From positions 1 through 8,527 of the forward strand of contig CATPBC010000372.1 of NCBI GenBank assembly GCA_955652195.1: a stretch of 8,527 nt of DNA. Direction: 5' to 3'. Both the position numbers and the translations under genes were made by a program. The notes under the pieces were generated by a model. It was not told the origin of the DNA. It searched no databases and saw only the letters and a list, made by a program, of their open reading frames with translations. The stretch comes from an uncultured Xanthobacteraceae bacterium. GTDB lineage: Bacteria > Pseudomonadota > Alphaproteobacteria > Rhizobiales > Xanthobacteraceae. This document shows, piece after piece, positions 4,353-8,124 of this stretch; the first letter of the stretch is position 1, and the number at the start of each line of letters is the position of its first letter.

Positions 4353-4376
4353 AGTGGGTGCTCCGTACGGTGAGTC

Positions 4377-4454
4377 GTCACCGCCGGGCTTGACCCGGCG
4401 GTCCATGCAGCGGGGCGAGGCACCATGGATTGCCGGATCAAGTCCGGCAATGAG
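4377..4454. repeat. Intergenic palindromic repeat of two inverted hairpin units
   Basis: Two hairpins stand in inverted orientation. Unit 1 is CCGCCGGG-CTTGA-CCCGGCGG (4381-4401, perfect 8-bp stem); unit 2 is ATTGCCGGA-TCAAG-TCCGGCAAT (4429-4451, perfect 9-bp stem). The loops are reverse complements, and 4377-4408 matches the reverse complement of 4423-4454 at 24 of 32 positions, with the conserved flank TCCATG. Six of the eight mismatches are paired within the stem and preserve pairing. This is the architecture of a dispersed BIME-like intergenic element; antisense translation gives the 'MDRRVKPGGDD' peptide often mis-annotated as a gene in alphaproteobacteria (recalled, not searched). It lies 24 bp after livF and could help end or stabilise the operon transcript. 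Confidence 0.78.
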
Positions 4455-4460
4455 GAGCGA

Positions 4461-4515
4461 ACGTTTCCCGGACGCGGTGCAGCGTGAAACGGTGCGCTGC
4501 AGACCCGGGGTCTTC
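4461..4515. repeat. Second palindromic intergenic repeat
   Basis: TGCAGCG (4478-4484) pairs with CGCTGCA (4495-4501) around a 10-nt loop, and the flanking CCCGG (4467-4471) can pair with CCGGG (4505-4509). The run 'GTTTCCCGGACGCGGTGCAG' resembles a family of dispersed intergenic sequences recalled from Bradyrhizobium-like genomes. It sits directly after the first repeat and before the 3' end of the minus-strand small peptide gene, so it may serve as a shared 3' structure. The right-hand border cannot be set from one copy, and nothing else is recognisable between it and 4562. Confidence 0.5.
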
Positions 4516-4562
4516 GCTTGTCATCGGGCCGGCCACTTCGGACCGAACCCGTTGGGGCCGCC

Positions 4563-4700
4563 TCAGGAAGTTGGCTTTGGGCAGCCGCACGTATCGGGTC
4601 GAGGGGCACCGGGAAGGCCGCCGCCGCTAACGGCTTCCAACTCGTCCACCGTCAATTCCCTGATCGTGTTTTTCGACTCGCTGATGATTTGCTCAGTCAT
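4563..4700 (-). CDS. Small double-glycine leader peptide (bacteriocin-type signal sequence)
   Basis: A 45-residue peptide with two parts. Residues 1-27 end in IRELTVDELEAVSGG, a classic double-glycine leader: the conserved E-L-x-x-x-E-L-x-x-V/I-x-G-G pattern recognised by C39-peptidase ABC exporters, with predicted cleavage after G27. The remainder, GLPGAPRPDTCGCPKPTS, is 18 residues, rich in Pro and Gly, with a CGC motif (Cys38, Cys40). Start: ATG at 4700 (complement), preceded by AAGGGAGAG at good spacing; the longer reading from 4760 has no such site and adds residues before the leader. A candidate promoter and palindrome lie upstream. No exporter, modification enzyme or immunity gene lies in the window. 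It could be a bacteriocin, a signalling peptide or a modified peptide precursor; the leader is clear, the function of the core is unknown. Confidence 0.75.
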   Translation of the reverse strand: MTEQIISESKNTIRELTVDELEAVSGGGLPGAPRPDTCGCPKPTS

Positions 4701-4757: not shown

Positions 4758-4786
4758 CATAGCGCGTTGAATGACCGACCTGACAA
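4756..4786 (-). promoter_or_regulatory. Candidate sigma-70-type promoter of the leader peptide gene
   Basis: On the complement, TTGTCA (4786-4781) is followed after 19 bp by TATGAT (4761-4756), each one mismatch from consensus. The spacing is 2 bp long. The start codon lies about 55 bp beyond the -10 box. An inverted repeat TTGAA-N5-TTCAA (4795-4809) sits just upstream of the -35 box in an A+T-rich stretch. Confidence 0.35.
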
Positions 4787-4939: not shown

Positions 4940-4972
4940 GGCTGCACCTTTATCCCAAAAATCCGTGCAGCC
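4940..4972 (-). terminator. Inverted repeat at the 3' end of the toxin gene
   Basis: GGCTGCAC (4940-4947) and GTGCAGCC (4965-4972) form a perfect 8-bp stem around a 17-nt loop that straddles the toxin stop codon. There is no T-run behind it on the minus strand, so termination is only possible. It could instead affect toxin mRNA stability. Confidence 0.25.
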
Positions 4973-5300
4973 GCTGGCTGACGGTCTTAACCGCGGTCTT
5001 GTCGAGACGCCCGATGCGACGATCGATGTGGCCAGGCTCAATGCATGCGATCTTTGCTGGTCGCACCACAGATGGTGCGGGCAGCCCTGCGCGCTTGCTG
5101 TCGCGGATCGTCACGTCGCTGGACCAAGCCTCGTTCTCGGTGCTGGTAATCATCGCAACCCATATCAGGTCGTGCGCGGCTAGCTTGTGATTCGAAATTA
5201 CCAGTGCAGGACGGCGTTTCTCGGCCAGACGGTCGGCATAAGGAAACGGGACGACCACCACGTCAAACGGCTTAAAGCGATGCGAGGCCTGTATTATCAC
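4950..5300 (-). CDS. Type II toxin, PemK/MazF family endoribonuclease
   Basis: A 116-residue protein with the PemK/MazF fold signature: 'FDVVVVPFPYADRLAEKRRP' followed by 'ALVISNHK' (residues 12-39), the second-strand motif 'IWVAMITSTEN' (46-56), and the C-terminal 'SVVRPAKIACIE...RRIGRLDKTAVKTVSQRL' that ends the family. Such toxins cleave mRNA, often at short motifs, when their antitoxin is degraded. The length is normal for MazF-like proteins, and the Arg-Pro and Thr-Ser motif positions expected near the active site are present, so it looks intact. It starts with GTG at 5300; GTGA (5300-5297) overlaps the antitoxin stop, so its translation is coupled to and probably kept below that of the antitoxin. 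Antitoxin-first order is typical for MazEF/PemIK systems. Cleavage specificity cannot be predicted from the sequence. Confidence 0.9.
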   Translation of the reverse strand: MIIQASHRFKPFDVVVVPFPYADRLAEKRRPALVISNHKLAAHDLIWVAMITSTENEAWSSDVTIRDSKRAGLPAPSVVRPAKIACIEPGHIDRRIGRLDKTAVKTVSQRLHGFLG

Positions 5301-5533
5301 AGGTCCTGATAGGCTCTCTCGTCAGCCTCGCTGGCCCATTCGGAGAACGACGCAAACGGATCGTCCGCCTCAGGTGTGGGCGCTTTATCCAGGAGCACGC
5401 CGTGATCGGTCACACGGTACCGCAGCGTGTCGCCGGGCTTGAGGCCCAAACGCCTGCGCACTTCACGCGGGATCACGGTCTGGCTTTTGACCGAAACCTT
5501 GGAAGACACGGTTTCCAGCGATCGGCGCTTCAT
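5297..5533 (-). CDS. Antitoxin with AbrB/MazE-type DNA-binding domain
   Basis: A 78-residue protein. Residues 7-50 (ETVSSKVSVKSQTVIPREVR, then RRLGLKPGDTLRYRVTDHGV) are a SpoVT/AbrB swapped-hairpin DNA-binding domain with the hallmark V-x-x-K-x-Q-x-x-IP-x-x-x-R. The acidic, aromatic tail DDPFASFSEWASEADERAYQ is the expected flexible toxin-binding segment. Such antitoxins block the toxin active site and repress their own promoter. The ATG at 5533 is the sensible start because the AbrB domain begins right after it; no good Shine-Dalgarno is visible and the transcript may be nearly leaderless. The same frame stays open upstream to about 6772, but that part is antisense to the DUF2865-like gene and is not part of this protein. 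Confidence 0.91.
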   Translation of the reverse strand: MKRRSLETVSSKVSVKSQTVIPREVRRRLGLKPGDTLRYRVTDHGVLLDKAPTPEADDPFASFSEWASEADERAYQDL

Positions 5534-6561: not shown

Positions 6562-7653
6562 TCAGGCAAGCTTGCCGACGACGTCCTCCGCCAGCGATAG
6601 CGAGGCGGTCAGCCCCGGCGATTCGATGCCGAACAGATTGACGAGCCGCGGCATGCCGTGCTCCGCCGGCCCGGCAATCATGAAATCGGCTTGCGGTTCG
6701 CCGGGACCGCGCAGCTTCGGCCGGATGCCGGAATAGTCCGGCACCAGCGAGCCGTCCGGCAGGTCCGGCCAATAGGTGCGGATGCGGGAATAGAAACTAT
6801 CGGCGCGGCGGGGATCGACCGCGTAATTTTCTTCGCTGACCCACTCGACGTCCGGCCCGAACCGCATGCGGCCTGCCATATCGAGCGTGACGTGAACGCC
6901 AAGCCCGCCGTCGATCGGGGTTGGATAAATCAGCCGGGAAAATACCGGCCGACCGGCATAGCCGAAGTAATTGCCCTTGCCGAGCACAAGCCGCGGCACT
7001 TGCTCGGCCGGATAGCCTTCGATGCGGCGCGCCAATGCCTGCGCGCCCAGTCCCGCGGCATTGACGACGGCGTCGAATTCCAGAGTGCAAGGTTCGCGGC
7101 CGCCGAATTGCACGCGCCAGTGCGGCGCCTTGAAGCTCAGACGCTCCACCGGAGTTGCGAACGCGATCGCTCCGCCGCAGTCTTCGAGTTCGCCCCACAG
7201 CGCGCGCATAAAGGCATGACTGTCGATGATGCCGGTTTCCGGCGACCACAAAGCGCCGATGCAGGATAGTTCGCTCTCCATCGCGCGCGCGGCATTGGCG
7301 CCGATCATTTCCGTGCCCTCGACGCCATTGATCTGTGCTTGGGTGTGAATGGTCTCGACCTTCGCCAATTCGGCGGGACTGGTCGCGACGACAAGTTTGC
7401 CGCATTTGCGATGCGGCACGTCGTGCGAGCCGCAGAACGCGTACAACATCCGGCGGCCGCGCACGCAATGCCGGGCGCGCAGCGAGTCGGTCGGGTAATA
7501 AAGGCCGGCATGGATTACCTCGCTGTTGCGCGAGGAAACGCCGTTGGCGATTCCGCCGGTCATTTCGGCGACGGTGACATCGTGGCCGGCCTGCGCCGCC
7601 GTGCGCGCGATGGCAAGCCCGATGACGCCCGCACCGATCACCAGAACCTGCAT
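6562..7653 (-). CDS. FAD-dependent oxidoreductase, DAO fold, LhgO-like
   Basis: A 363-residue flavoprotein. The N-terminal VLVIGAGVIGLAIART holds the FAD-binding GxGxxG (G7, G9, G12), followed by the acidic residue of the Rossmann fold (VAEMTGG). SSRNSEVIHAGLYYP (40-54) is the strong hallmark of the L-2-hydroxyglutarate oxidase/dehydrogenase group, as are PETGIIDSHAFMRAL, the NAAGLGAQALAR segment, YPTPIDGGLGVHVTLDMAGR and the C-terminal ESPGLTASLSLAEDV. Members oxidise 2-hydroxy acids or amino acids and pass electrons to quinone or oxygen. Classical LhgO is about 400-420 residues, so this shorter form may act on another 2-hydroxy or amino acid. ATG at 7653 (complement) with AAAGGC upstream. 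The gene ends 26 bp from the convergent DUF2865-like gene and is divergent from the Rieske gene across 84 bp. The substrate is inferred only by family. Confidence 0.94.
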   Translation of the reverse strand: MQVLVIGAGVIGLAIARTAAQAGHDVTVAEMTGGIANGVSSRNSEVIHAGLYYPTDSLRARHCVRGRRMLYAFCGSHDVPHRKCGKLVVATSPAELAKVETIHTQAQINGVEGTEMIGANAARAMESELSCIGALWSPETGIIDSHAFMRALWGELEDCGGAIAFATPVERLSFKAPHWRVQFGGREPCTLEFDAVVNAAGLGAQALARRIEGYPAEQVPRLVLGKGNYFGYAGRPVFSRLIYPTPIDGGLGVHVTLDMAGRMRFGPDVEWVSEENYAVDPRRADSFYSRIRTYWPDLPDGSLVPDYSGIRPKLRGPGEPQADFMIAGPAEHGMPRLVNLFGIESPGLTASLSLAEDVVGKLA

Positions 7654-7737
7654 TGCGTTTTTGCCTTTGTGCTGTTTGTCGTCGCGCTTCGCGCACGCGT
7701 GGAATGACTATATAACAGGCGCTCAAAGAGGAGAGCC
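7654..7737 (+). promoter_or_regulatory. Divergent intergenic region with candidate -10 box and strong RBS
   Basis: The 84 bp between the divergent oxidoreductase and Rieske genes must hold both promoters. On the + strand TATAAC (7711-7716, 5 of 6 to the -10 consensus) lies in ACTATATAACAGG; no good -35 box precedes it, so an activator or other sigma factor may be needed. AGAGGAGAG (7727-7735) is a strong ribosome binding site for the ATG at 7738 and supports that start over the in-frame ATGs at 7750 and 7774. Confidence 0.4.
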
Positions 7738-7797
7738 ATGTCGGGTAATATGTCGGAAAAAACGCCGGAAAAAATGCCGGATAATGTGGCGGCTAAC
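7738..7797 (+). repeat. Five-unit 12-bp tandem repeat at the start of the Rieske gene
   Basis: In-frame units at 7738, 7750, 7762, 7774 and 7786 read ATGTCGGGTAAT, ATGTCGGAAAAA, ACGCCGGAAAAA, ATGCCGGATAAT and GTGGCGGCTAAC, encoding MSGN-MSEK-TPEK-MPDN-VAAN. Units 1-4 share A-x-G-Y-CGG-x-x-A-A; unit 5 is more diverged. The repeat ends exactly where the conserved ferredoxin domain (VVRICAQ) begins. Confidence 0.6.
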
Positions 7798-8124
7798 GTC
7801 GTCCGCATCTGCGCGCAGAGTGAAATCGCGCCTGACAGCGTCAAAGCATTCGAGGTCGGCGATAGGCGGCTCGCCGTGTTCAATATTGGCGGCCGCTTTT
7901 ATGCCACCGATGACGAATGCACCCACGCCTCGGCGAGCCTTGCCGACGGCATGCTGGATGGCGAGGTGATCGAATGTGCGATGCATATGGGGGCGTTCCA
8001 CGTGCCGACCGGGGAAGTGAAGGCGCCGCCTTGTGCGGTGGCGCTGCGCACCTACAAGGTCATACTGGAAAGTAATGACGTGGTGGTCGATCTCGACCGC
8101 GATGCTGCCGGCGAATTGGCGTGA
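7738..8124 (+). CDS. Rieske-type [2Fe-2S] ferredoxin
   Basis: A 128-residue small electron carrier. The cluster ligands are C61 and H63 in CTHASASL and C80 and H83 in CAMHMGAFHV, giving C-x-H-x16-C-x2-H, the spacing of Rieske ferredoxins. The motif after the second cysteine is C-A-M-H-M-G rather than the more common C-P-x-H-G. FNIGGRFYATDDECTH and TGEVKAPPCAVALRTYKV are typical of ferredoxin components of ring-hydroxylating dioxygenases and of the MocE-like ferredoxins of rhizobia. No signal peptide or oxygenase alpha subunit is present, so it should act in the cytoplasm with a partner encoded elsewhere. The first 20 residues are a low-complexity extension made of tetrapeptide repeats. Strong RBS before the ATG at 7738. 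It is divergent from the flavoprotein gene and upstream of an alcohol dehydrogenase gene, so a shared catabolic pathway is plausible. Confidence 0.93.
   Translation: MSGNMSEKTPEKMPDNVAANVVRICAQSEIAPDSVKAFEVGDRRLAVFNIGGRFYATDDECTHASASLADGMLDGEVIECAMHMGAFHVPTGEVKAPPCAVALRTYKVILESNDVVVDLDRDAAGELA

Follow-up and report, generated by a model that had tools for sequence, protein, structure and literature searches.

An open reading frame of 45 codons on a contig of an uncultured Xanthobacteraceae bacterium raises the question of whether it encodes an exported peptide, and by which machinery such a peptide could leave the cell. The window, i.e., the whole stretch of DNA that was analyzed, comprises 8,527 nucleotides and is the entire contig. 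The frame spans 4700 to 4563 of the minus strand, ATG to TGA, and its product of 45 amino acids consists of MTEQIISESKNTIRELTVDELEAVSGG followed by GLPGAPRPDTCGCPKPTS. The features of the locus are given below.

4563..4700, minus strand: double-glycine precursor gene, 45 amino acids (ATG at 4700, TGA at 4565-4563), with near-identical proteins P0001 and P0002
4620..4700, minus strand: leader MTEQIISESKNTIRELTVDELEAVSGG, 27 residues with a Gly-Gly end, supported by a profile built without the window (44.3 bits) and by NCBIfam CCRG-2
4566..4619, minus strand: predicted core GLPGAPRPDTCGCPKPTS, 18 residues with Cys-Gly-Cys, read from the sequence and delimited by a predicted cleavage
4516..4568, no strand assigned: copy of a dispersed intergenic repeat, whose minus-strand TCCTGAGG provides the precursor with its final codon and stop

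Since the double-glycine leader is complete, the peptide is likely cut to 18 residues and exported. The frame, with this leader and its 18-residue CGC core, is probably a precursor for a C39 ABC exporter, none of which was found in the 85%-complete genome. The precursor would be translated from the minus-strand frame, its leader would dock on the C39 domain of a C39-peptidase ABC exporter and be cleaved off after Gly-Gly, and the 18-residue Pro/Gly-rich core would be exported, possibly as a small secreted antagonist or signal. Present function in this bacterium would require that the missing part of the assembly encode an exporter.

Relatives of the whole peptide were limited to two protein clusters, P0001 (45 amino acids) and P0002 (65 amino acids), each 98% identical, and over the shared 45 residues the sole change from the window was a Gly-to-Ala substitution at the final position of the leader. 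Gly-Ala is counted among the accepted C39 peptidase sites in an excerpt of PMC6363468. The reading frame was unbroken in the window and likewise in both clusters. An in-frame ATG upstream, at 4760, allows an alternative reading of 65 amino acids, and GGGAGAG lies just before the ATG at 4700. In the precursor region, promoter-like and terminator-like patterns were looked for and none was found, there was no match to Rfam, and the 3' fold was no better than shuffles (z 0.30).

The leader is beyond chance. Scored with a profile of 17 columns, which was built from 48 distinct leader ends of other loci with the window left out, it reached 44.3 bits, compared to a maximum of 13.7 bits in 300 simulated first-order Markov windows. 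It carries L-12, E-8, L-7, V-4, G-2, and G-1, which are all six positions named for C39 recognition in the excerpt of PMC6363468, and it has the combination by which a C39-type leader was defined (L-12, E-8, L-7, and V-4 followed by GG, GA, or GS). An earlier note on this DNA had described a clear double-glycine leader and an 18-residue core with a CGC motif; the score and the six recognition residues bore out the former, and the sequence itself the latter. Two NCBIfam models matched the end of the leader, both under their cut-offs: NF033456 (CCRG-2 family RiPP; E 4.5e-5, 23.3 bits against 24) and TIGR01847 (bacteriocin signal; 14.4 bits against 15.7). No curated NCBIfam or Pfam cut-off was reached by the precursor.

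The Gram-negative double-glycine leader consensus M(R/K)ELX3E(I/L)X2(I/V)XG(G/A), as quoted in an excerpt of PMC3140520, fits the leader at all but the first position, where Ile takes the place of Met before Arg-Glu-Leu. The locus had been put forward in the earlier note as the best candidate in the window for an undescribed system, a claim left unsupported because a leader of this kind plus a C39 exporter is a described system. The peptide shares the double-glycine site and the short core with Gram-negative double-glycine precursors that have C39 exporters, but no exporter was found in its own genome. Overall, the precursor is known by kind, new by core, and unusual in standing alone.

On one side of the precursor lie branched-chain amino acid uptake (liv) operon genes, named from sequence, and on the other side a PemK/MazF-like toxin with a MazE-like antitoxin, a DUF2865 protein, an FAD oxidoreductase, and a Rieske protein. 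The toxin and antitoxin genes, at 4950-5533 on the minus strand, adjoin the precursor. The window, six proteins of which were scanned against Pfam, showed no genes for exporting or modifying a peptide or for immunity to it, and the earlier statement that none is nearby holds for the contig. Class II microcins of the colicin V type have a double-glycine leader and C39 export, both of which are shared by the working model for the window. In contrast to these microcins, the window precursor has no adjacent immunity gene, its neighbors being the liv genes and the MazEF-like pair, and no linked exporter was seen, with no C39 in the assembly. Four stretches from congeners (L110, L112, L113, and L115) share the order of the DUF2865, oxidoreductase, and Rieske genes, so the contig belongs in this genus. 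No Liv, precursor, or MazEF match (E 1e-5) was found in L110, L112, or L115, for each of which more than 2 kb was fetched upstream of DUF2865; hence, the precursor block looks special to this lineage. MazEF-like relatives did occur in several congeners, and were not beside DUF2865 in the stretches read.

Of 296 genomes in the family, 10 were found to carry the leader type of the window on other cores (profile, E no higher than 0.01), as were 17 of 397 in the order (E no higher than 0.001). The richest family genomes held 9, 8, 7, 7, and 6 leader matches, and all leader counts are lower bounds, as in some large genomes a part of the first-look candidates was scored (e.g., 21 of 69 in G220). Named leader-bearing records were a Hyphomicrobiales MAG, a Hyphomicrobium MAG, Nitrobacter sp. 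JJSN, and a Phyllobacterium zundukense plasmid; the loci L014 and L015 are not independent of genomes G135 and G574.

The leader is statistically, and often physically, linked to strong C39 exporters. Strong matches to C39, with E values below 1e-25, were present in eight of the 10 leader-positive family genomes versus 18 of the 286 others (Fisher p 5e-8), and in 16 of the 17 leader-positive order genomes versus 33 of the 380 others (Fisher p 4e-15), where both p values assume independence between genomes, an assumption that does not hold. The two leader-positive sets share G000 and G220, and their union without the genome of the window comprises 24 genomes, 23 of which had a strong C39. A leader lay within 7 kb of the strong C39 in 16 of these 23. 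Seven genomes (G055, G135, G150, G177, and G220 in the family, as well as G380 and G557) had no listed leader on the contig of the strong C39, so that scattered precursors with an exporter elsewhere are common in the family. The catalytic Cys and His were kept in all eight exporters read from leader-positive genomes. However, no leader of this type was seen in 18 of the 26 family genomes that carry a strong C39; hence, the exporter also acts on other substrates, or on leaders that escape the profile. One stretch, L086 (G054:C140), contained seven double-glycine leader peptides on both strands and one C39 exporter within 5.8 kb.

The genome of the window is the exception. The earlier note had held that the machinery must be encoded elsewhere; this arrangement is real in the five family genomes above, but a C39 domain search of the window's own assembly, which is 85% complete, gave no match. 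A whole-protein search with the G135 exporter yielded no closer exporter in this genome: the seven ABC transporters found had 26-38% identity, and none of them aligns into the first 150 residues of the query. Lack of a C39 exporter in the genome had been named in advance as refuting the proposal, and the result goes against it to a degree tempered by the completeness, since a genome that is 85% complete may hide an exporter. Paralogous leaders, a search for which had also been suggested, were not forthcoming: the leader profile returned one clear leader in this genome and no second, with one piece at E 0.87 in a 195-aa frame. C484, at E 0.73, was rejected as a second precursor, as it lies in a 319-aa frame. 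Among 19 congeners, neither the leader nor a strong C39 was found in any, and three weak leader pieces (E 0.3-0.4) lay in long frames. In terms of the comparison of leader and core across species that had been proposed, the two 98% relatives keep both, with Gly-Gly becoming Gly-Ala, and the congeners showed no leader.

These results bear on the strongest alternative, a serious contender of clearly lower probability than the preferred reading, in which the lineage has no C39 exporter and the precursor is stranded and now functionless, its 3' end perhaps truncated by a repeat. The assembly with no C39 match and the 19 congeners with neither component are consistent with such a relic, as are the last codon and stop that fall within a repeat, whereas the frame and all recognition residues are intact in the window, the frame is intact in P0001 and P0002 too, 15% of the genome is missing, and the exporter is present in 23 of the 24 other leader-positive genomes. 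A parallel for a relic was seen in G081, the second leader-positive genome with no C39 match. It retains one double-glycine leader peptide and contains, in L109 (G081:C265) at about 7542-7806, a frame-broken remnant of a C39 exporter ATPase, in which segments of 70 and 25 residues are 67% and 88% identical, respectively. In our judgement, a hidden exporter and a stranded precursor are about evenly balanced, and the peptide is of an ordinary kind in an unusual state, being a lone and perhaps stranded precursor.

The repeat at 4516-4568 had copies in at least nine of 20 genus genomes among the matches listed. In 20 fetched repeat-bearing loci (six from the own genome and 14 from congeners), the sequence beside the repeat differs, and the repeat was therefore taken as non-coding. 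GGPNGFGPKWPAR, which follows the stop in frame, was rejected both as a missing piece of the peptide and as a core held in common, since the repeat adjoins differing sequence. As the last codon and stop fall in the repeat, the short core has perhaps lost its original end, and it may have been shortened at the 3' end by the repeat.

The core was compared with a catalogue of 51 cores from related genomes, which was picked by regular expression from leader-profile loci and includes near-duplicates and entries cut by locus ends. These cores ranged from 15 to 56 residues and were mostly unrelated by eye, and the 18-residue core of the window is shorter than all except the 15-residue entries. Likeness of the window core to any of them was rejected, with a best score of 25 versus a mean of 29.5 for shuffled cores, and a CxC motif was present in none of the 51. 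The earlier view that the core resembles no bacteriocin stands within this catalogue and the Pfam and NCBIfam libraries, and extends no wider. Among the matches listed from open-licence PMC papers, none was on this peptide set. As a speculation, the CGC motif could form a small disulfide loop or bind a metal. A modified core, with the two Cys placed in thioether or other links before export as in a RiPP, is improbable: the CGC core and a weak match to the type-A lantibiotic family (Pfam PF04604; E 0.066, 13.5 bits against a gathering threshold of 21.7, covering the leader only) would agree with it, but no modification gene was seen in the window.

Export of the uncut peptide through an HlyB/RTX-type exporter of the genus, with a non-cleaving C39-like domain, is very improbable. 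Weak C39 matches were found in 10 of the 19 congeners, and the one scanned was an HlyB over the HlyB cut-off. In the C39-like exporters of congeners, the Cys position was occupied by Ala, Ser, or Thr in all seven read (from four of the ten weak-match genomes together with G226, G202, and G233, with G184, G240, and G246 left out), and the His position by Gly, Ser, Glu, or Arg in all five read. However, the own genome had no such match, and the 45 residues contain no C-terminal RTX-type signal by eye. A chance open reading frame is scarcely credible, given the leader score far above those of the simulated windows and the near-identical proteins in other assemblies, despite the short length, the lack of a promoter pattern in the region, and a third-codon-position GC of 0.67 compared to 0.74-0.79 in the neighbors.

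Beyond the single precursor for a C39 exporter, a broader interpretation is offered with somewhat less than even confidence: in Hyphomicrobiales, one leader type and the C39 exporter may serve a combinatorial repertoire of secreted peptides, and the CGC peptide may be a lone member that either entered a genus otherwise devoid of the system or persisted there after its exporter was lost. If true, the different cores would number in the dozens, often encoded at a great distance from the exporter and for the most part unannotated. The C39-type leader in this order marks scattered short genes, some wholly unannotated, such as that on the Phyllobacterium plasmid, and nearly always occurs with a strong C39, so that likely exported peptides of these bacteria can be listed. 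The single peptide is modest, and the wider result on leader and exporter is more useful; the genome of the window and G081 would be rare cases for the fate of precursors after exporter loss.

One family with the same leader type as the window consists of the AEAHIGP-type peptides P0003 to P0011 (one from Nitrobacter sp. JJSN) and L058 (G135). The named members are recorded as hypothetical protein, and they have their own conserved 44-residue core, which is unrelated to that of the window. The mean identity was 88% in the core versus 62% in the leader, with the core higher in 35 of 36 pairs, in a comparison of nine of 11 proteins from which P0012 (other core) and P0013 (cut leader) were dropped. 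From this stronger conservation of the core, it is argued that the core acts after release. The family ranges from Nitrobacter to metagenomes, with no given function.

Among 17 records with plasmid matches at E 3 to 5, 15 were set aside as lying inside a permease gene. The match on the Phyllobacterium zundukense plasmid has a genuine-looking leader: at about 4001-4110 of L150, an unannotated double-glycine peptide has the leader MTTDKNTIRDLNVNEINTVSGG and a different core. Additionally, L004 and L005 were rejected as precursors, as their frames have an internal stop and show no leader by eye.

The stretch from 4375 to 4568 is a mosaic of dispersed repeats at 4375-4456, 4460-4515, and 4516-4568. 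The last of these holds a unit of about 40 bases, other copies of which sit, by eye, within two differing REP-like palindromes that start with CGTCATCCTGAGG or CGTCATTGCGAGG, as though an element had been inserted into another.
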